Origin: a virus
Direction: 5' to 3' (one strand)
DNA length: 23,675 bases
Virus record (IMG/VR): IMGVR_UViG_3300031706_000046
Coordinates: 1 to 23,675 of that record
Below, one piece after another: positions 2,364 to 16,137 of the stretch. The notes beneath the pieces were generated by a model, which did no database searches, was not told the DNA's origin, and saw only the letters and a program-made list of their open reading frames with translations. Positions within the stretch are counted from its first letter, which is position 1, and every line of letters begins with the position of its first letter. Both the position numbers and the translations under genes were made by a program.

Positions 2364-5300
2364 CTATCGGGACATGTCTGCGCTATCTGACATAATGTCA
2401 ACGCCTTCTAAGAACATCTCTCCATGTGCATTTGCGGACTCTCTTATCATCCCGATTATGTTTCCTCGTTGTGTCATTAGTAAGTCTTCTACACCCGCAG
2501 CGTCTACTGCATTGATTGAGAAGTTTACATTTGTTGTTCCGCCGGTACTTTGACCTGAAGGTATAATTTCTCCTGGAGTTTCGGGCATAAATAGCTCTGG
2601 TCCTTGCTCTCCAACTACGTAGCCTCCACCGGCTCTGTGCTTGTATCCTGAGAATGCGCTTTTCGGTGTATAGTTAGTCATACCACTTCCGGTTCCACTC
2701 TCTCCGCGAGCATAGCCTAACTCACCAGAAGGGCTGCGTGCTGAAGCCATGTCTACGGAGTTTTGACGATTGCCTACGCTCACGGCAGAGACTGCGGGAG
2801 CAGACGCCGCTCCCCCTCCTCCTCCTTGAAAAGAGCTTCCCGCAACAATAGCTATAGAAGCGGCCCCTATGGCTGCAATAGCGCCTCCTATACCTGCAAA
2901 GACGGAAGCAAATGTGATAGGAGCTGCCGGGCCGGTAGCGGCCGCAGCTGATGCGGCGGCTTGGGCGGCAGATACCATAGCCGCTGCTGTAGAAATAGCT
3001 ATTTGTGCCATTTGCATTTTTTTATTTATTTCAAAAGCTTTTTTCTGTGCTGCTACTTTCTTTTTCTCCATCATTGTTATTTTTGCTACTGATCCCGCGG
3101 ACTTTCCGTCTCTTTTCTTTTCTGCCGCTATTTCTTGGTCTATTCCTGCTATTCTTCCGGCGCTGCTAGCCGCCAAAGTCTGGCTCAGCATACTAAGAGC
3201 AGCACCTGCGACCTGTAGCTTGCCTATCGTTTCTGTAGCTGATATTTCTGCTGCACTTAAGCCCTCAGTCATGCCTTCTGAAATGCTGTGTGACATATTC
3301 AGGAAAGCGCTTTGAATAGCCATAGCACCTCCAGATAGGGCGGATACAAGCTCTCCATCAGGTCCAAGAGTTTTTAACTTCTCAAGCATAGGGTCTAACT
3401 GGTTTATTGAAGCCGCCATTGTTGCAACTGCTCCACCTGTTTTGCTTAAACCTTCGGCAGGATCTCCGGCGTCCATAGTATTCTTTATTCTTTCTGCTGT
3501 AGTATCTCCTGTACCGGAAGCAGTTATGGCAGCTTTAGAGACTGCAGATTGTTTAGTTGCTCCTTCTAAGTCTAGGTCTGATGCTTGTGTAAGAGCATTA
3601 CTAATAACCGCATTCATTCTTGCTTGGAACACTTTCGGGAAAGTTGACAAAAGACCATCAAAATCCGCGCTTAAAGAACCTTCTTTCATTCCAAGCTCTT
3701 TTTCTACAATAGTAGCACGAGCTTTTTGAAGTTTAGTTTGTGCTACAAGTAGTTGCTTTTCTAATTCTATGGCATGTAGTTTGCCTGACATTTCTTGAAA
3801 AATAAGTTCTTTTCTTTTCTGTTCCGTAGCTTTAAATTGCTTTAACTCATCAAGAGGTGTAAAGTCTCTTCCTGTTTTCATTTTTGCCATTCTTGCTTGG
3901 TTCTCAGCACGCTTCATACCGTCTAATGCTATTTGTTTCTCTGCGGCGGCTATCTGCGTAGTAAGACCAAGTATCTTCTGTGCGTGCTTAATGCCTTCAA
4001 TACCGGATCTCAAAGTGTCTACAGCAGTATTTGCTCTTGCTGCATCTATTACTGCTAACTCTCTGGTTATCTCTGCCAGACGATCTTTCTTGCTTGTTTG
4101 CATTTCTAAAGTGTTATATGTTTCTTGTTCGGCTTTTAGCGAGGCTTCTTTAGAGGTTCGAACTTGCTCTTCCAAACCGATTAAAACTTTTGTAGCTTGT
4201 TCGTTTCCTGCTGCAAATTCTTTTACTTTGCCCATTTCTACTTTGAGTCTTTTTTGTACTTGTACTTGCTTAAGCATCATATCTTTTTGCTTAGTTACGT
4301 GTGCTGTCAGTGCTGCTTGAACCGACGTCAAGCTCATGCTGTCTACTACTTCGTCTGCGAAATTCAAAGTGTCTTTTGCAAACTTACGAAGAGTCTCCTC
4401 TAGTTTAGGGACCTGCTTCAAAAAAGCATCTAATCCCATTCCGCCTGTTGAACCTGCTTGTGCCATTTCATTTGTTAAGTTTCTTTGAGCCTTAATTACT
4501 CCATCAAAAGCATGGGATCCTTTATCTCCAAGATCTGTAATTTCTTTGCGGAAGTCATTATAAACTTGCTTTGCAGCATCTACCGAAGAAATCACTTCTT
4601 TGTTTTTACCCAACAAAGTATCTGTTTCTGTAATAAGCTGGTCGTAGCTCATTCCTTCACCCTCTTTGTTGGCTTCTTTGAATTTTTGTTTTAGAGCCTC
4701 TAAGCCTACTACAGTTCCTGCTAATTCTTCCTTTAAAACATCGTTGCCTTTAATTTTGCGGATTGCATCCTCTAAAACTAAGATACCCTCTGCTTCGCGG
4801 GCTAAACCTATAGTTGTTTTTAGTTCTTTGTGTTCTGCACGGGCACCGTCAAGTCTCGCCTGCAAGTTTGCCATATGCTGTTGAAAAGGAGGGTAAGCCG
4901 CTTCTCCGGCTTCTGTATATTTTTTTGTTACTTTGTCCAGTTCTTTTTCAAGGTCTAAAGCTTTTTGCTTGCTTTCGACTAATTTTTCTGAGTTCATCTC
5001 ATTTGCTGCTGCTTTCATAGCAGAGAAAGCAGAAGAAACTTGCTCAACAACACCCACCTGAACTCTCATAGTAGCAATAAATTTTTCAGCTTCAGAGGTA
5101 TTCCTTCCTAAAGTGTCTGCAAGTTGGTCGCCGATACCGTCAAAACTATTAAAAGCTTCTGTGGCTTTAGCAGCAGCTTTTGCAAGCTTGTCTTTTTCAA
5201 AAAGCTTGCTCAAAAGAGGGTATAATATAGAGGCTACCATTATTAGCTGGCCTACAACAGGGACAGCATTAAGCATAGCAGTACCAAATAACTTTGCGCC

Positions 5301-6767
5301 ATTGCCTGCAACTCTAAAGCCTATAGTTAGTTTATTCAGGGCTCCGGTGGCCTTTGCTACGTCTTTTGATTGCTTACCCACAGAAGCAGCTGCGATCTTA
5401 AAACCGTCAAGTGCACCTGCCCCTTCCATCATCTTGAAAGCTGCTGATGTTTTTCGAGACGTAGAGCTCATACCTTTTGCTTTGCCTAAAGCACCTCCGG
5501 CACTAGATCCTGCTTTTTCTTGTTTTTGTAGTGCAATTAGCTCTGCTTTTAACTGCTTTATTTGATTGATTTCAGTTTGTTTCTGTGCTTGATTTTTGAG
5601 GGCACCTGCATCAAGATTTTTCTGTCTACGGGCCTCAGTCGCACTCAGTTTAACAATAGCATCTTTTAGCTGTGCGGCACTTACAGTGCCTTTTCTCAAA
5701 CTGGTCTCCATAGTAGATAAACTTTTAGGAGCAAATTTAAACGAAGAAACTGCTTTTGCAGATTTCTGAAAAGCGTTAGTAGTTTTTGCAGCAAGTCTGG
5801 TAGCTTCCTGACTTGTGGCCCTGGCCATCTTTCGTGCGGCATCTGCCGAAGCAGTAATTGCAGGCACAATTTGACTTACTAAAGTTCCTGCGAACATAGT
5901 CACAGCAGCCATAAGAGCTACTGGATTAGAAGATAGTATATTGGCAATAGGCTCGAGCGCGACGTTTATAACGTTAATTGCGGTGTTTGATAAGTTAGAG
6001 AAAGATGCGGATAATTTGTCATAGGGGTTTACGTCTACTGCTTCTGCTAATGCTCCAAACTTTTTCAAGCCCTGCTCATTAGTAGCAGTTAGGAATGCCA
6101 TGCGTCTCTCGTACTGGGTAAGATCTTTTGCGTTTTTGTTAAGAGTAATAGCGAATTCTGCTACAGCATCATCTAAGCGAACCATGATACCTAATTCATC
6201 CAAGATCTCTGGCTCCAATTTTGCGGTACCTCTTACTAAACGATCCATGGCATCTGTCATGTCTCTTCCCAAGGCTACGGAAGCACCCTTGGCGACTTTA
6301 GTAAGATCTGCTAATTGTGCAGTAGAAAAGCCCGCACTTACAGCAAGAGCTGTAGAACGCATAGAAGCTTCTGTAGAGATTGCTGCTCCTGTTATGTCTT
6401 TAAGTCTTTCAGCCACAACGGAGAGGTTTGTACCTGCAGCATTACCTACACGTAGCAAGCCTTCTTCGAGTAAACGAAGAGAGGCTGCTTTAGATAGTGC
6501 TCCAAAGAGTGCGGTAAGTGCAAAGACGTTTGCAGCAAGTGTTGCATAAGCAGGAACAAGACCACCGCTGATACCAGTGGTCATCTTCGAGAAAGCTTTA
6601 GTGCTATTAGAGGTCGCTCCTATAACACCTTTCTGTTGCTTATTGTGCTGTGCAGAGGCATCTGTGGCTTTCTTAGTAGACTTAGCAGCTTTCTCAGCTC
6701 CCTTTGCTATTTTGCCCAGACTTCCGTCTTCATTAACTTTGTACGTTACCGTAATCGTATCAGCCAC
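2364..6767 (-). CDS. Tail tape measure protein
   Basis: A 1467-aa protein, the longest in the window and placed right after the G/T tail chaperones. It sets tail length and is expelled into the cell envelope on infection. The N-terminus is Lys/Ala/Thr-rich; hydrophobic segments lie near residues 68-95 and 495-525 and in a long Ala/Ile-rich stretch in the last 200 residues; the centre (about 540-1050) is charged heptad-like helix. The C-terminus has 'GGYVVGEQGPELFMP', common at the end of tape measures. At 0.15 nm per residue the tail would be about 220 nm. The start is GTG, not ATG: the upstream gene's TAG and this GTG overlap as TAGTG, which indicates translational coupling. Many antisense open frames across it are shadows. 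Confidence 0.95.
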   Translation of the reverse strand: MADTITVTYKVNEDGSLGKIAKGAEKAAKSTKKATDASAQHNKQQKGVIGATSNSTKAFSKMTTGISGGLVPAYATLAANVFALTALFGALSKAASLRLLEEGLLRVGNAAGTNLSVVAERLKDITGAAISTEASMRSTALAVSAGFSTAQLADLTKVAKGASVALGRDMTDAMDRLVRGTAKLEPEILDELGIMVRLDDAVAEFAITLNKNAKDLTQYERRMAFLTATNEQGLKKFGALAEAVDVNPYDKLSASFSNLSNTAINVINVALEPIANILSSNPVALMAAVTMFAGTLVSQIVPAITASADAARKMARATSQEATRLAAKTTNAFQKSAKAVSSFKFAPKSLSTMETSLRKGTVSAAQLKDAIVKLSATEARRQKNLDAGALKNQAQKQTEINQIKQLKAELIALQKQEKAGSSAGGALGKAKGMSSTSRKTSAAFKMMEGAGALDGFKIAAASVGKQSKDVAKATGALNKLTIGFRVAGNGAKLFGTAMLNAVPVVGQLIMVASILYPLLSKLFEKDKLAKAAAKATEAFNSFDGIGDQLADTLGRNTSEAEKFIATMRVQVGVVEQVSSAFSAMKAAANEMNSEKLVESKQKALDLEKELDKVTKKYTEAGEAAYPPFQQHMANLQARLDGARAEHKELKTTIGLAREAEGILVLEDAIRKIKGNDVLKEELAGTVVGLEALKQKFKEANKEGEGMSYDQLITETDTLLGKNKEVISSVDAAKQVYNDFRKEITDLGDKGSHAFDGVIKAQRNLTNEMAQAGSTGGMGLDAFLKQVPKLEETLRKFAKDTLNFADEVVDSMSLTSVQAALTAHVTKQKDMMLKQVQVQKRLKVEMGKVKEFAAGNEQATKVLIGLEEQVRTSKEASLKAEQETYNTLEMQTSKKDRLAEITRELAVIDAARANTAVDTLRSGIEGIKHAQKILGLTTQIAAAEKQIALDGMKRAENQARMAKMKTGRDFTPLDELKQFKATEQKRKELIFQEMSGKLHAIELEKQLLVAQTKLQKARATIVEKELGMKEGSLSADFDGLLSTFPKVFQARMNAVISNALTQASDLDLEGATKQSAVSKAAITASGTGDTTAERIKNTMDAGDPAEGLSKTGGAVATMAASINQLDPMLEKLKTLGPDGELVSALSGGAMAIQSAFLNMSHSISEGMTEGLSAAEISATETIGKLQVAGAALSMLSQTLAASSAGRIAGIDQEIAAEKKRDGKSAGSVAKITMMEKKKVAAQKKAFEINKKMQMAQIAISTAAAMVSAAQAAASAAAATGPAAPITFASVFAGIGGAIAAIGAASIAIVAGSSFQGGGGGAASAPAVSAVSVGNRQNSVDMASARSPSGELGYARGESGTGSGMTNYTPKSAFSGYKHRAGGGYVVGEQGPELFMPETPGEIIPSGQSTGGTTNVNFSINAVDAAGVEDLLMTQRGNIIGMIRESANAHGEMFLEGVDIMSDSADMSR

Positions 6768-7087
6768 TAGTGTTTTCTCTTTAGCTTCTCCCTCTCTCTT
6801 TTAAGTTGTTCTTGAGAATGGTTGATAGCCCTTGATTCTAGATAAGTTAGAATCTCTAAAAATAGTTCTTTGTCTTCAACCTCGTAAATATCCATATAGT
6901 GAGGTAGGTTTGTAAAATCTTTCCCTAGATAGCCTATGTCTGGAACTACCTTGTCTCCTAGCATACTGAAAGTATTCATTGCATCTATTGCTATAGAAGG
7001 GAAGTCTTCGAAGTCAGGAGGTATCTCATCTTCGTTCGGCTCTTGCCCCATCTGTTCACACATTTTAAAGTAACGCTCTCGCGTCAT
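6767..7087 (-). CDS. Tail assembly chaperone, T domain (likely made as a G-T frameshift product)
   Basis: An acidic helical protein of 106 aa if started at the ATG at 7087 ('MTRERYFKMCEQMG', then 'EIPPDFEDFP', and a basic end). It sits between the G gene and the tape measure, where siphophages encode the T domain of the G/GT chaperone pair that coats the tape measure during tail assembly. The ATG has no convincing Shine-Dalgarno sequence. The same frame stays open upstream to a stop at 7163-7165 and reads sensible helix ('QLLNRLEKYFKNSDSK') into the end of the G gene. I infer that it is normally made by +1 or -2 frameshifting from G, adding about 25 residues before M1. The stop overlaps the GTG of the tape measure. 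Confidence 0.75.
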   Translation of the reverse strand: MTRERYFKMCEQMGQEPNEDEIPPDFEDFPSIAIDAMNTFSMLGDKVVPDIGYLGKDFTNLPHYMDIYEVEDKELFLEILTYLESRAINHSQEQLKREREKLKRKH

Positions 7088-7097
7088 CTTTGAATCA

Positions 7098-7162
7098 CTA
7101 TTCTTGAAGTACTTTTCCAGCCGGTTTAGGAGCTGGTCCTTTTGGCTTTGAACGAAAGTTCT
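7098..7162 (-). other. Candidate +1/-2 programmed frameshift zone between G and T
   Basis: The T frame is open from 7162, and the G frame closes at the TAG at 7098-7100, so any shift must happen in these 65 bases. T is offset by +1 (equal to -2) from G. Two in-frame Lys codons followed by G, at 7140-7142 (CCA AAA G) and 7113-7115 (GGA AAA G), would let tRNA-Lys re-pair from AAA to AAG in a +1 slip. No perfect -1 heptamer is seen, and -1 would not reach the T frame. Which site is used is unknown. Confidence 0.5.
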
Positions 7163-7547
7163 CTAGATCAAAGACTACCTCGTTGAGCCATGTGTCAAAT
7201 TCAGTTGAAGAACTGACAAGAGTCTCGGCATTATCTTCGCTGAACTCTAGCTCTTTGGAGGCATCTTGCCCGTCTATGTCTACTAAAAGTAGTGTTTCTA
7301 GGTGTGCAAGTGTTAAGCCTTTCCAGTTTTTAATTACAGACCTTGAAAATTCTGTTATAAACTTTTCTTCGTCTAAGTTTTCTACCGCTTGACGTGTTTT
7401 ACGATCGTACTTAGTAGTAGTACATTTTTTACGTAGCCCTGTAAGCTCTTTTCGTGAAAGGTTAGCAACCTCTACTTCAAAACCTTTAAGACCTGGAAAG
7501 TCAACCCAAACTGCTTTGGTATCAACCATTAATTTTTTTAAATCCAT
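7098..7547 (-). CDS. Tail assembly chaperone G
   Basis: A 149-aa protein directly upstream of the T frame and the tape measure. It contains 'DFPGLKGFEVEVANLSRKEL', then 'KKCTTTKYDRKTRQ' and an acidic helical half, the pattern of gpG-type tail chaperones that keep the tape measure soluble before tube polymerisation. The C-terminal 20 residues are Pro/Lys-rich ('RSKPKGPAPKPAGK'), typical of a linker crossed by the ribosome before a frameshift into T. The ATG at 7547 has AAGGAAT about 10 bases upstream; a second Met (residue 7) lacks as good a site. The assignment rests on gene order and pattern. Confidence 0.75.
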   Translation of the reverse strand: MDLKKLMVDTKAVWVDFPGLKGFEVEVANLSRKELTGLRKKCTTTKYDRKTRQAVENLDEEKFITEFSRSVIKNWKGLTLAHLETLLLVDIDGQDASKELEFSEDNAETLVSSSTEFDTWLNEVVFDLENFRSKPKGPAPKPAGKVLQE

Positions 7548-12257: not shown

Positions 12258-14267
12258 TTAAGCGTCAGTACGAATCAACTTAACAACCGATACATCGGTA
12301 GTGCCGTTGTTAGCACGCAACTGGTTGAAGCCGAGTGACTGGCTAGCAACAATTACGTTACGCTGGTTCATTACTTCGTAATCCTGCTCTACAGATACAC
12401 CGCGGAGACGTGGGATGACGTGGTTACGAACGTTAACACAGTAGCCTACAGAAGCAGTGTTGGCTTCAGTTTCGAGCTGGTCAGATACAACAACTGGAGT
12501 GCCATAGATAGCGCCGACCATGCCGGTGATCTTAGTAGCAATATCAGAACCTACGTCAGTAATGTCAGCAAAAGCTGGATCAGCAAGCAGATCATAATAA
12601 CGAGCCTGAGATACGACATAAACGAGGTCAGAAGGCATCATGCCATACTTACCCATCAACTTACGACCAGCAAGGAACTCAGCAGCAGTAACTGCAACAT
12701 CAGCACTACCAGTAGAGTTAAGAACAGCAACGCTGTTAGAACCTGCAAGAGCTTCCAAGCCGTTAAAGCCTTCGTCGCCACCAGAGGTACCGTTGATAAT
12801 TGCGTTGTCTACGGCACGAGCGTGGGCGCGAGCAACAGAGTCAACCAACATAGGCATTAAGTTAACGAGCACTTCTTCATCAACATTGTTGTCCATGAAA
12901 GTAGTAGAAACCAGACGGTTAGCTTTCAGAATTACCTGAGCAGCGTTATACTGGTTACCAGTTACCTGAGGACGGTTAGTCAAGTTACCGGCGGCAGCAG
13001 TGTTTGAGCCCCAAGTAGCTGGAAGTGCGTCGGTCTGAATTGGCAGTACTTGAGTTTGTGAGTTAATAGTAATCTCACGGAAAGCCTGGGCCAACTTCAG
13101 TTCTTGCATGATTTCTTTCTCGATTTGAGTAGAAACGCCTTGAGCGATGTCACCAGCATTAGCTGCATAGTTTACGCCTGCTTTTTCAAACAAGTCCTGA
13201 GAGTAAGAAGTATCCCAGCCTTTGCCAGTCATTACGCCTAGCATGTGGCCAGTCATAAACTCTTTAGCAAACTTAGAAATGTCGCCTTTGCCTTCTGAAC
13301 GGTCGCCGAAGCTTTTCTTGCTGTTCTGCATAGCAGTGATTTCAGCAGACTTTTCTTCGAGGTCTTTGCCGTACTTAGCAATAACTTCGTCGAACTTAGC
13401 ATCTTTTTCGTTAAGCTGCTTCTGTACGTCAGCCATAAGAGCTTCTACGCCAGTTTGTACGCCAGTCTTGACGCGGATGTTTTCGGCTTCTAGAGCCTGA
13501 GCTTTTTCAACTTCTGCTTCGGCGGATGCCTTGGCTACTGCGTCGTCAGCTGCTTTTTGCTCGGCTTGCTTCATTGCGATTTTAGCAGCTGTATCTTCAG
13601 CTACTTTCTTTGCAAAAGCTTCCAAGTCGATGTTTTGATTGTCCATTTTGATCTCCTGATCTGCGGAAATAAGTTCCGCGCTTTTAGGTGTGTTGTCACT
13701 AGCTATATTTGAAGAAGTATCTTCGTCCTTAGCCAGAGACTGACCTGCTAGATCTACACGATTAGTGAAAGTTTTTTTGAATTCTTCGTACTCTTTATCA
13801 GAGTCAAAAGACTTCGCGAGCGAAAAAGTAGCTGACTGATTACAAGGTACGGAAACAACCGATACCTCAAATAGCTCAGCGTCCTTAATCATAAGTCCGT
13901 CGGTTTCCTTAATGTAATCAGCATCCTTGACTCGGAAACCTACGGAAAAGGCCCCAAGAACACCGTCTTTTACTAGCTCTGCAACATTAGCAGGTGCTGA
14001 CTTGCTAATCTTACATTCTAATTCCAAACCATCAGGGCCAGCTTTTAGACCTGTAGCTCGACCAATTGGCTTGTCATAGTCATGATTAAACAAGATAATT
14101 GGATTCTTTTCAAAGTTCTTTAGTCCACCTTTTTGCCAAGCTTCTACTGAGATGGAATCACCCGCGCGATCAAAATCAGCTGTACTTGCAAACCCTCGAA
14201 TCATTACAGAACCATCGTCCTGTGCCTGAGTCTTGAAGGTAGACGTAAGATTAAAGATTTTATTCAT
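12258..14267 (-). CDS. Prohead protease / major capsid protein fusion (HK97 type)
   Basis: A single 669-aa frame. Residues 1 to about 160 are an S78-type prohead protease: catalytic candidates His62 ('ILFNHD'), Ser108 ('GAFSVGF') and Glu134 ('LFEVSVVSVP'). Residues 208 to about 320 are a Lys/Ala/Glu-rich coiled coil like the HK97 delta (scaffolding) domain, and from about 330 to the end an HK97-fold capsid protein with 'LANRLVSTT'-like and 'GLEALAGSN' segments and a C-terminal 'VVKLIRTD'. The protease would cut itself and the delta domain away during maturation. The ATG at 14267 has AAGGA eight bases upstream. A second start with an excellent ribosome site lies at residue 208 (ATG at 13646), so free capsid precursor (462 aa) is probably made too. 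A terminator follows. Confidence 0.92.
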   Translation of the reverse strand: MNKIFNLTSTFKTQAQDDGSVMIRGFASTADFDRAGDSISVEAWQKGGLKNFEKNPIILFNHDYDKPIGRATGLKAGPDGLELECKISKSAPANVAELVKDGVLGAFSVGFRVKDADYIKETDGLMIKDAELFEVSVVSVPCNQSATFSLAKSFDSDKEYEEFKKTFTNRVDLAGQSLAKDEDTSSNIASDNTPKSAELISADQEIKMDNQNIDLEAFAKKVAEDTAAKIAMKQAEQKAADDAVAKASAEAEVEKAQALEAENIRVKTGVQTGVEALMADVQKQLNEKDAKFDEVIAKYGKDLEEKSAEITAMQNSKKSFGDRSEGKGDISKFAKEFMTGHMLGVMTGKGWDTSYSQDLFEKAGVNYAANAGDIAQGVSTQIEKEIMQELKLAQAFREITINSQTQVLPIQTDALPATWGSNTAAAGNLTNRPQVTGNQYNAAQVILKANRLVSTTFMDNNVDEEVLVNLMPMLVDSVARAHARAVDNAIINGTSGGDEGFNGLEALAGSNSVAVLNSTGSADVAVTAAEFLAGRKLMGKYGMMPSDLVYVVSQARYYDLLADPAFADITDVGSDIATKITGMVGAIYGTPVVVSDQLETEANTASVGYCVNVRNHVIPRLRGVSVEQDYEVMNQRNVIVASQSLGFNQLRANNGTTDVSVVKLIRTDA
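13644..13657 (-). promoter_or_regulatory. Internal ribosome binding site and start for the capsid part
   Basis: AGGAG at 13653-13657, six bases, then ATG at 13644-13646, in frame with the protease-capsid fusion at residue 208. This spacing is ideal, and the start falls exactly at the border between the protease tail and the delta-like coiled coil. It would give capsid precursor without protease, in excess over the fusion. Confidence 0.75.
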
Positions 14268-14585: not shown

Positions 14586-15785
14586 TTATTCTTCTCCTTC
14601 TTGTGAAGGTCTTCCGCCTTCATCTGGGTTAGCTGCGGAACCTGCAATATTTGCTGGGATCCTGATTTCCTCTGTACCATCTATAGGCTCGAAACCTAAA
14701 CGCTCTCGCGCCTCTGCTGCGGTAATAATGCCTCCATTTACTAGTGAAGTATAGTAGGCAGACGAGTCACGTAACTCAGGCTGCAGAGCAGGGATGTTTG
14801 TAATATCTTCGCTTAACTCGAAACCGAAATATCTTTCCAGTCCATAATTAATTTTTCGAACAATAGGAAGTATAGTCTCAAGATAATATAATCGCATATT
14901 TGGGCGAATGTTAGCATTGTTTCCAGAGTCCATCAAAATTGGAGGGATTCCGAGCGCCTTTAAAATAATCTTTTCGTTCTCTAAGATTGCACTTTGAAAA
15001 TCCAATTCTTTAAAATTAACGTTAGAGATAGAGTCTACTTCGATGCCACCATCTAAGATAAGAGGTCGGCGGCCACCAGCATCTGGGCGGTAGCGTGCTT
15101 GCCAAGAAACCATCATTCGTTCTTTGATCTTCTCGGAAAGTGTATTTGGTGATTTTAGTACTAAACCTGGAACTGCTCCGTTCTTAAAGAAGTTATCCTG
15201 AAATGATCGCATATGCTTCATAAGAACCATAGTACGAAGTGCAGGTTTTAAACGTGGTACGCCTCTATAGATAGAGTGGAAGGAGTTTTCTTTAATGTGA
15301 ATAATTTCATCAGGACTAAAGGTAATATCAAACATTGTAAACTTCTCAATGTAGGTTTCTTTATCTGAGTGAATTTGCACATCAGTGGCAGGTAGATGAT
15401 AGAGGTGAGCTCCATCAAAGTACAAAAAGATATTACCATCAATAAGTAAGTCAATAATGAGGTTACGTTTAAAGGTGTTAATATCTTGATAAGGGTTAGG
15501 AGACTTGTTGAGAAGAGTCTCTACCTTGGAACGCTTAATACCGGGAACAACGCCTCGAAAAGCATTATTTTTAGATACTAGAGTATGAATCTCAGCTACG
15601 TCATCGACAATCATATTTACGCCGCGATTAACGATCTCTAAGTCTTCATAGGCTCTTTCGTAGCTAAACGTAGGCTCTCTTGAAGACTCGACGCCGTGAC
15701 CACCATTACCAATATGTATTTGGGCAGGGTTCAGCTTTTCTTCAACGTCTACGGTTTTCTTTTCAAAAGGGTTATACCAAGCCAT
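14586..15785 (-). CDS. Portal protein, HK97 family
   Basis: A 399-aa HK97-type portal, close to the usual family length. Seen segments: 'IDLLIDGNIFLYF' (wing strands), 'PDEIIHIKENS' and 'YRGVPRLKPALRTMVLM' before a helix, 'NFFKNGAVPGLVLKS', then 'ILENEKIILKALGIPPILM' and a long helix, followed by 'NGGIITAAEARERLGFEPI', typical of the portal C-terminus. The last 20 residues are Gly/Glu/Pro-rich and probably disordered. Twelve copies form the DNA entry ring and bind terminase. Its start overlaps the HNH gene's end by 14 bases. Confidence 0.92.
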   Translation of the reverse strand: MAWYNPFEKKTVDVEEKLNPAQIHIGNGGHGVESSREPTFSYERAYEDLEIVNRGVNMIVDDVAEIHTLVSKNNAFRGVVPGIKRSKVETLLNKSPNPYQDINTFKRNLIIDLLIDGNIFLYFDGAHLYHLPATDVQIHSDKETYIEKFTMFDITFSPDEIIHIKENSFHSIYRGVPRLKPALRTMVLMKHMRSFQDNFFKNGAVPGLVLKSPNTLSEKIKERMMVSWQARYRPDAGGRRPLILDGGIEVDSISNVNFKELDFQSAILENEKIILKALGIPPILMDSGNNANIRPNMRLYYLETILPIVRKINYGLERYFGFELSEDITNIPALQPELRDSSAYYTSLVNGGIITAAEARERLGFEPIDGTEEIRIPANIAGSAANPDEGGRPSQEGEE

Positions 15786-16137
15786 GTTTTTCTCTTTGAA
15801 TCTCTACCCAGCGCATTTGTTTCTTTGCAGTTCCTAGCGCAGGATCTTTGCCGTAAATTGAGTGGAGCTTTAAATGATGAGTATGACATAAAGTAACTGT
15901 GTAGTCATATAGCTCAGCATGATGCTCTTCTATAAAGTCATCCCGAAGTGCTTGAATATAATCAGGATTATGTTTGTTCTTTAGTAACCATTGATTTAAC
16001 AAAGGTGTCAAACTGTAAAAGTGGTGAAAATCGAGCTGCTCTGTCTCATCGCAAATCTCGCAAGCCGAACCTTTATTATACTTAGACTTTGCCTTATCTC
16101 GTACATATTTTACTACATCGCGTTTTAACTGAGGCAT
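15772..16137 (-). CDS. HNH endonuclease
   Basis: A 121-aa protein with a zinc-bound HNH motif: Cys26 and Cys29 ('ACEICD'), His38/His39 ('LDFHHFYSL'), and 'TLCHTHHLKLHSIYG' with Cys84, His87/88 and His92. HNH proteins encoded beside the terminase often take part in DNA cutting during packaging, as in HK97 gp74; this is the likely role here rather than a homing nuclease, since the gene is in tight operon order, overlaps the portal gene by 14 bases and is not inserted in another gene. Transcription starts at its own promoter P3, and GGAACC lies about 11 bases before the ATG. Confidence 0.85.
   Translation of the reverse strand: MPQLKRDVVKYVRDKAKSKYNKGSACEICDETEQLDFHHFYSLTPLLNQWLLKNKHNPDYIQALRDDFIEEHHAELYDYTVTLCHTHHLKLHSIYGKDPALGTAKKQMRWVEIQREKHGLV

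Follow-up and report, generated by a model that had tools for sequence, protein, structure and literature searches.

A conserved UUU_CGN site as the probable point of +1 frameshifting between the tail assembly chaperone genes of T5-type phages

Depending on the phage, tail chaperone genes are known to shift −1, −2 or +1, and the roles of the products G and GT are known from lambda, which shifts −1 (according to passages of PMC5009743). The locus analysed here is similar to that of lambda in having two tail assembly chaperone ORFs between the tail-tube and tape measure genes and differs from it in direction, since the shift would be +1 and would take place at UUU_CGN. The protein families also differ, lambda G belonging to PHROGs 42/32165 and T to 39/32165, as opposed to 313 and 3914 here, a difference compatible with distant homology. 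A chaperone extension in the +1 frame is shared with Mu gpGT and with HSTV-2, described as 'very likely +1' (in the relevant part of PMC5009743); Mu, unlike our locus, is known to shift −2, and the comparison with HSTV-2 is one of direction. The site itself resembles that of influenza A PA-X (UCC_UUU_CGU), with which it has in common the UUU_CGU core, the +1 direction, the predicted movement of tRNA-Phe from UUU to UUC and the F-V joint; a passage of the source paper (PMC3498833) argues for the tRNA-Phe slip in PA-X and predicts a general class of UUU_C sites. In contrast to PA-X, we are dealing here with a bacterial virus, with unrelated genes, with a variable E-site codon (AAC, AAT, ACT, TCC, TCT, TCA or ACG) and with a site predicted from sequence. 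The shifts of SPP1 and Listeria phages are likewise similar by direction; they occur in the gene for Tsh, the major tail protein, and not in a chaperone gene. They are +1 events in siphophage tail genes, established by protein sequencing (part of PMC3498833).

Within the literature searched, the recoding is of a known kind; the site type, the phage family and the switch of direction described below were not found described. The family is that of T5, a classical model phage. As stated in a passage of the Sugarland paper (PMC6256483, citing Zivanovic et al. 2014), neither Sugarland nor T5 has a predicted frameshift signal. No report of a frameshift in the T5 family was found in the titles and abstracts searched (subscription papers and preprints being outside the scope), and the passages on frameshifts or chaperones in PMC10721106, PMC10038345, PMC11313276 and PMC8624392, as well as those in PMC10714931, PMC4319617, PMC3326045 and PMC10713586, contain no frameshift for this gene pair. 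According to part of its description (PMC10885494), the PRFect predictor admits forward slips only via motifs 'four' and 'three' with a favourable A-site ratio.

The G/T locus and its frame offset

The window, that is, the whole stretch of DNA analysed, is a 23,675-base virus fragment with structural genes on the minus strand. Its tail genes match T5-type Pfam families (Baseplate_Tube_p140, Phage_tube_2, DTP-pb9 and, below threshold, T5_p143) and also PHROG tail families. As in G/GT loci generally, two overlapping ORFs of chaperone families lie between the tail tube and tape measure genes. The features of the locus are the following.

7547..7098, minus strand: G, tail assembly chaperone, 149 aa, zero frame (ORF; PHROG 313 'Tail assembly chaperone', E=2e-16; 6-nt Shine-Dalgarno (SD) core)
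7173..7181, minus strand: GAG_GTA_GTC, near invariant, candidate stimulator (66/70 exact; GAGGTA 70/70)
7163..7165, minus strand: in-frame T stop TAG, just 5' of the shift site (sequence)
7162..6767, minus strand: T open frame, +1 relative to G (ORF; PHROG 3914 'tail assembly chaperone', E=7e-21)
7160..7152, minus strand: predicted shift site AAC_TTT_CGT, G-frame codons N130 F131 R132 (TTT + CGT/CGC/CGA conserved 73/73; TTT_CG[T/A] in 17/17 named T5-family records)
7157..7155, minus strand: putative slip codon UUU (codon-anticodon pairing and conservation)
7088..7156, minus strand: T-frame segment 5' of the ATG, 23 codons, helical (invariant 69-nt length; periodicity; AlphaFold2 helix)
7085..7087, minus strand: T ATG, probably a Met inside GT and not the sole start (ATG 68/70, TTA 2/70; strict SD 4/70)
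2364..6767, minus strand: tape measure protein gene, directly 3' of T (PHROG 3779, E=2e-83)

G and T overlap by 62 nt in the window, the T frame being +1 (equivalently −2) of G, and the gap between the G stop and the T ATG is 10 nt. Relatives comprised 10 loci collected with T and the best 80 of 228 collected with G, giving 91 rows with G, window included; one of these (L029) has no T, its contig ending there. T lies in the +1 frame in all 90 rows that have both ORFs (window counted; G relatives being the best 80 of 228), and this offset is far beyond chance. Since some contigs are present twice, there are 68 to 73 distinct contexts, the number varying with the stretch under comparison. A preliminary description made from the letters of this DNA had noted that the T frame is open back into G at a +1/−2 offset, and the 90 rows bear this out. 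The marks of the lambda subtype are absent: T is +1 in 90/90, not −1 at an X_XXY_YYZ heptamer, and G/T homology is not seen, the PHROGs being different. The T frame opens 6 nt 5' of the +1 codon TTC in most relatives and 18 nt 5' of it in the rest, and in most relatives the segment between this codon and the T ATG can be reached only by a frameshift.

Two other genes of the window are worth pointing out. A single 669-aa ORF at 12258-14267 combines a prohead protease (Peptidase_S78, residues 11-151) with a phage capsid protein (375-514), and is by its domain matches a fused protease and capsid gene. Between the terminase and portal genes lies a 121-aa ORF (15772-16137) whose Cys/His pattern resembles, by eye, that of an HNH nuclease; it has no match in Pfam.

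T upstream of its ATG

The site and the T Met are 69 nt apart in every one of the 68 distinct loci, and the length of the G tail varies. Within the overlap, differences at T codon positions 1, 2 and 3 numbered 137, 100 and 189 (of 595, 595 and 562; 35 disjoint pairs), so that the third position of G is the least variable (p=1.2e-8, G third vs G first). A control stretch lying 5' in G has the reverse pattern, with 124, 100 and 321 differences (of 875 each). In other words, it is the T frame and not the G frame that is under protein selection in the overlap. Among T5-like phages, the T frame between the G stop and the T Met behaves in the same manner (17, 11 and 39 differences in 8 disjoint pairs, p=4e-5). 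Judged by its evolution, T appears to be translated 5' of its ATG. In line with this, alignments obtained by tblastn with the open T frame start at residue 1 or 2 in all 60 matches listed and, in a second search, in 59 of the 60 listed, that of Akh-2 starting from residue 11; residue 2 is the +1 TTC codon. The AlphaFold2 model of the extended T (mean pLDDT 89.8) has a helix at residues 2-21, 5' of the Met, with pLDDT of 82-89 for this block, in agreement with the plausible helix that the preliminary description had read in the open frame. A PDB fold search with the extended T model gave no match at E < 0.001, and bacterial genomes scanned with the T5-like T alignment contained no relative. A wide alignment of T is too weakly conserved to serve for such a scan.

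Of the readings that dispense with +1 slippage at UUU_CGN, the one that fares best is that T is a separate gene starting at the 7087 ATG, coupled to the end of G and expressed with no frameshift. We regard it as improbable. It accounts for the fact that records annotating T give it a CDS of its own, never joined to G, and for the proximity of the G end to the ATG in the window family. The ATG is also kept in 68 of the 70 window-family loci, but it is TTA in the other two, and there is no Met at this position in L065 and L066, nor in Sugarland, Kamaji, KKP_3711, Pontus and VspSw_1 (ATA, GTA, ATA and non-Met codons). The constant spacing of 69 nt likewise speaks against a gene that begins there, and so does the selection acting on the T frame 5' of the ATG. 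The start signals point the same way: a strict SD core precedes the T ATG in 4/70 loci, compared with 69/69 for the G start and 13.7% for random positions. By a loose definition (at least 4 nt matching the extended anti-SD complement) the figure for the T ATG is 40/70 vs 23% at random. In the window itself the 7087 ATG has no SD core and the G start has its 6-nt match, just as the preliminary description had it when it stated that T lacks a ribosome site. That description named homologues with T as a gene of its own and a ribosome site as grounds for giving up the frameshift; with a strict SD count of 4/70, below the level of random positions, this check did not refute it. Having no initiation signal of its own while being selected as a protein 5' of any start, T conforms to the general G/GT pattern. 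Because the ATG is kept in 68/70, some T might nonetheless be initiated separately alongside frameshifting.

We also considered the SD-like element GAGGTAGTC as a ribosome site for T. For most loci it was rejected, because the sole well-spaced start, TTG at 7171 in the T frame, meets the conserved TAG two codons on; only the few loci without a T-frame stop there could make use of it.

The UUU_CGN site and the predicted slip

Frameshifting from G into T very probably occurs as a programmed +1 event at AAC_UUU_CGU, which would make a GT fusion of the two. G (7547-7098) would be the major tail assembly chaperone, and a fraction of the ribosomes translating it would slip +1 at AAC_UUU_CGU (7160-7152). 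There, the P-site tRNA-Phe (anticodon GAA), which reads both UUU and UUC and should pair more strongly with UUC, would leave UUU and re-pair with UUC (7156-7154), and translation would continue in the T frame with GTT at 7153. The predicted GT product has 259 aa (G 1-131 followed by 128 residues), with the T domain tethered to the G domain. On the lambda model, G would coat the tape measure protein and a few copies of GT would bring in the tail-tube protein, so that the slip rate would set the G:GT ratio.

Codon choice in the 73 distinct G genes is nearly free except at the GAG, GTA, GTC, TTT and CGT/CGC/CGA codons. The codon at 7157 is TTT in 73/73, and the one that follows at 7154 is CGT in 54, CGC in 16 and CGA in 3, with AGA and AGG absent. 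By way of control, TTC occurs 7-30 times in each of seven other near-invariant Phe columns of G, and AGA 19-42 times in each of four other near-invariant Arg columns. At the protein level, all 16 G proteins compared have F131 and R132; identity to the protein of the window is 27-80% for the remaining 15. The proposed re-pairing from UUU to UUC agrees with the invariant C and with the CGT/CGC/CGA codon. In some phages the site is also fixed by position: only four codons separate TTT_CGC from the G stop in L048, and in My1 and 70E37.1 G ends with TTT_CGT_TAA, the T frame opening 11 nt before that stop. Because the G stop follows closely or directly in these three, the shift should lie at or beside TTT_CGN, and My1 and 70E37.1, with an overlap of only 11 nt, pin it down.

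With UUU in the P site, then C, and CGN, a sense codon, in the A site, all 73 genes carry the UUU_C arrangement of the PA-X type. The UCC of PA-X is not found in the E site of the window family, which holds AAC (60/70) or AAT (10/70); the 35 T5-like records have ACT 24, AAC 5, TCC 3, TCA 1, TCT 1 and ACG 1. The frequency of CGT is 10.3 per 1000 in 17 window genes and 18.4 in T5 tail and head genes, values that apply to phage genes. At these frequencies CGT is no rare codon of the phages, and their codon use lends no support to a slow A-site codon.

Possible stimulators were looked for on either side. The element GAGGTAGTC has GAG and GTA in 73/73 distinct G genes, and GTC accounts for 69 of 70 Val codons at its third position. 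It was not seen in T5-like phages and is constrained in the window family alone. The SD-like GAGGT inside it lies at an odd distance from the slip codon UUU, its end being 19 nt 5' of it; the element could act as a 5' stimulator. On the other side, no consistent 3' structure was found in 68 loci (mean z −1.05, range −3.9 to 1.4, mononucleotide shuffles), and a 3' stem-loop stimulator was set aside as weak and inconsistent across loci.

A −2 shift in the style of phage Mu at the same place would reach the same frame, and −2 is known for Mu (passages of PMC5009743 and PMC3498833), but we find it very unlikely. With it, tRNA-Phe would come to lie on ACT in the window and, in T5-like phages, on CTT, CCT, CAT or CGT, codons for which we infer no pairing shared across the relatives, whereas +1 gives UUC in every one of them. 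The +1 slip would also account for the C after UUU, presumably invariant because re-pairing needs UUC.

Hardly credible is a +1 slip on tRNA-Lys at AAA_G, as the preliminary description had proposed: the tetranucleotides do occur in frame with G, at 7142 and at 7115, but AAA is kept there in just 40/73 and 22/63 G genes, and position excludes them in L048, My1 and 70E37.1. Its frameshift thus stands as to the +1/−2 direction and not as to the slip site. The comparison of relatives that it recommended did yield a conserved site at the same offset, TTT_CGN, whose UUU_C (7157-7154) falls within the interval it had singled out, 5' of both AAA_G sites.

T5-type phages and a sister marine clade

Nineteen named records of the T5 family (Demerecviridae) were taken, in 17 of which both ORFs were readable (DU_PP_V, Sugarland, Kamaji, 70E37.1, Pontus, VspSw_1, RP7, PR1, My1, KKP_3711, DT57C, smaug, T5, Thalassa, AG74, phi 3 and VTCCBPA139). 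Each of the 17 carries either TTT_CGT or TTT_CGA, with T in the +1 frame. The same site and offset are found in 31/31 T5-like IMG/VR loci (L106, L111-L140; copies of named phages included), eight of which were left out of one count for having two candidate sites each. Of the 258 positions of PHROG 313, T5-like G matches 12-141 and T matches 170-258; as the profile spans both parts, it has fused members, so that in part of the deposited relatives the annotation is of one joined or fused protein.

The other two of the 19, the Aeromonas phages Akh-2 (L100) and AhSzq-1 (L224), were left out on account of interrupted frames. The interruptions, which probably reflect sequencing indels, run through G and its neighbours, and in these records G and T are either fragmented or lack annotation. 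Both phages have TTT_CGA at an apparently matching place.

In a sister marine clade the direction appears to be different. There G and T are homologous to those of the window, and the joint has the same Asn-Phe codon pair, but T is in the −1 frame and the site is an invariant A_AAT_TTT_AC as against +1 at TTT_CGN. In three loci (L107-L109) G ends with GAA_AAT_TTT_AC, and T opens in the −1 frame at the heptamer A_AAT_TTT. With the best 80 of 508 relatives of their G added, the clade comprises L107-L109 and L141-L220, L110 having been discarded as a false match. T is −1 in 82/82 of the loci examined (relatives being the best 80 of 508), and 83/83 contain GAAAATTTTAC, in 66 distinct contexts (same best 80 of 508). 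The sister clade appears to shift back by one base, and to do so at the same Phe codon. In a tree built from 44 G proteins it forms one group (99/96) and joins the clade of the window (87/78), with the T5-type G proteins outside both (midpoint root for drawing only; long branches flagged). On this G tree a single change of direction would suffice, and the order of +1 and −1 hinges on where the root is placed. It is worth noting that in five of 70 window-type contexts (L073, L075, L080, L084, L088) A_AAT_TTT stands before CGN with T still +1; these might be two-way sites and, as such, a possible route for a flip of direction.

Taken at its broadest, our reading is that the whole T5-type lineage, T5 included, uses an undescribed +1 site, UUU_CGN, and that one marine branch flipped to −1 (A_AAU_UUU_AC) with the G-T fusion kept. 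On balance we consider this probable, with less assurance than for the +1 shift at the window's own site. A conserved +1 site would close the gap left by the missing frameshift signal of T5 and Sugarland. Many deposited genomes that carry the gene pair would need their annotation corrected, as 901 phage records match T. For bacterial virology the gain would be a UUU_CGN +1 element that has the core of PA-X and is testable in E. coli. Finally, the two clades would constitute a natural experiment in which a recoding site changes direction and its product is kept.
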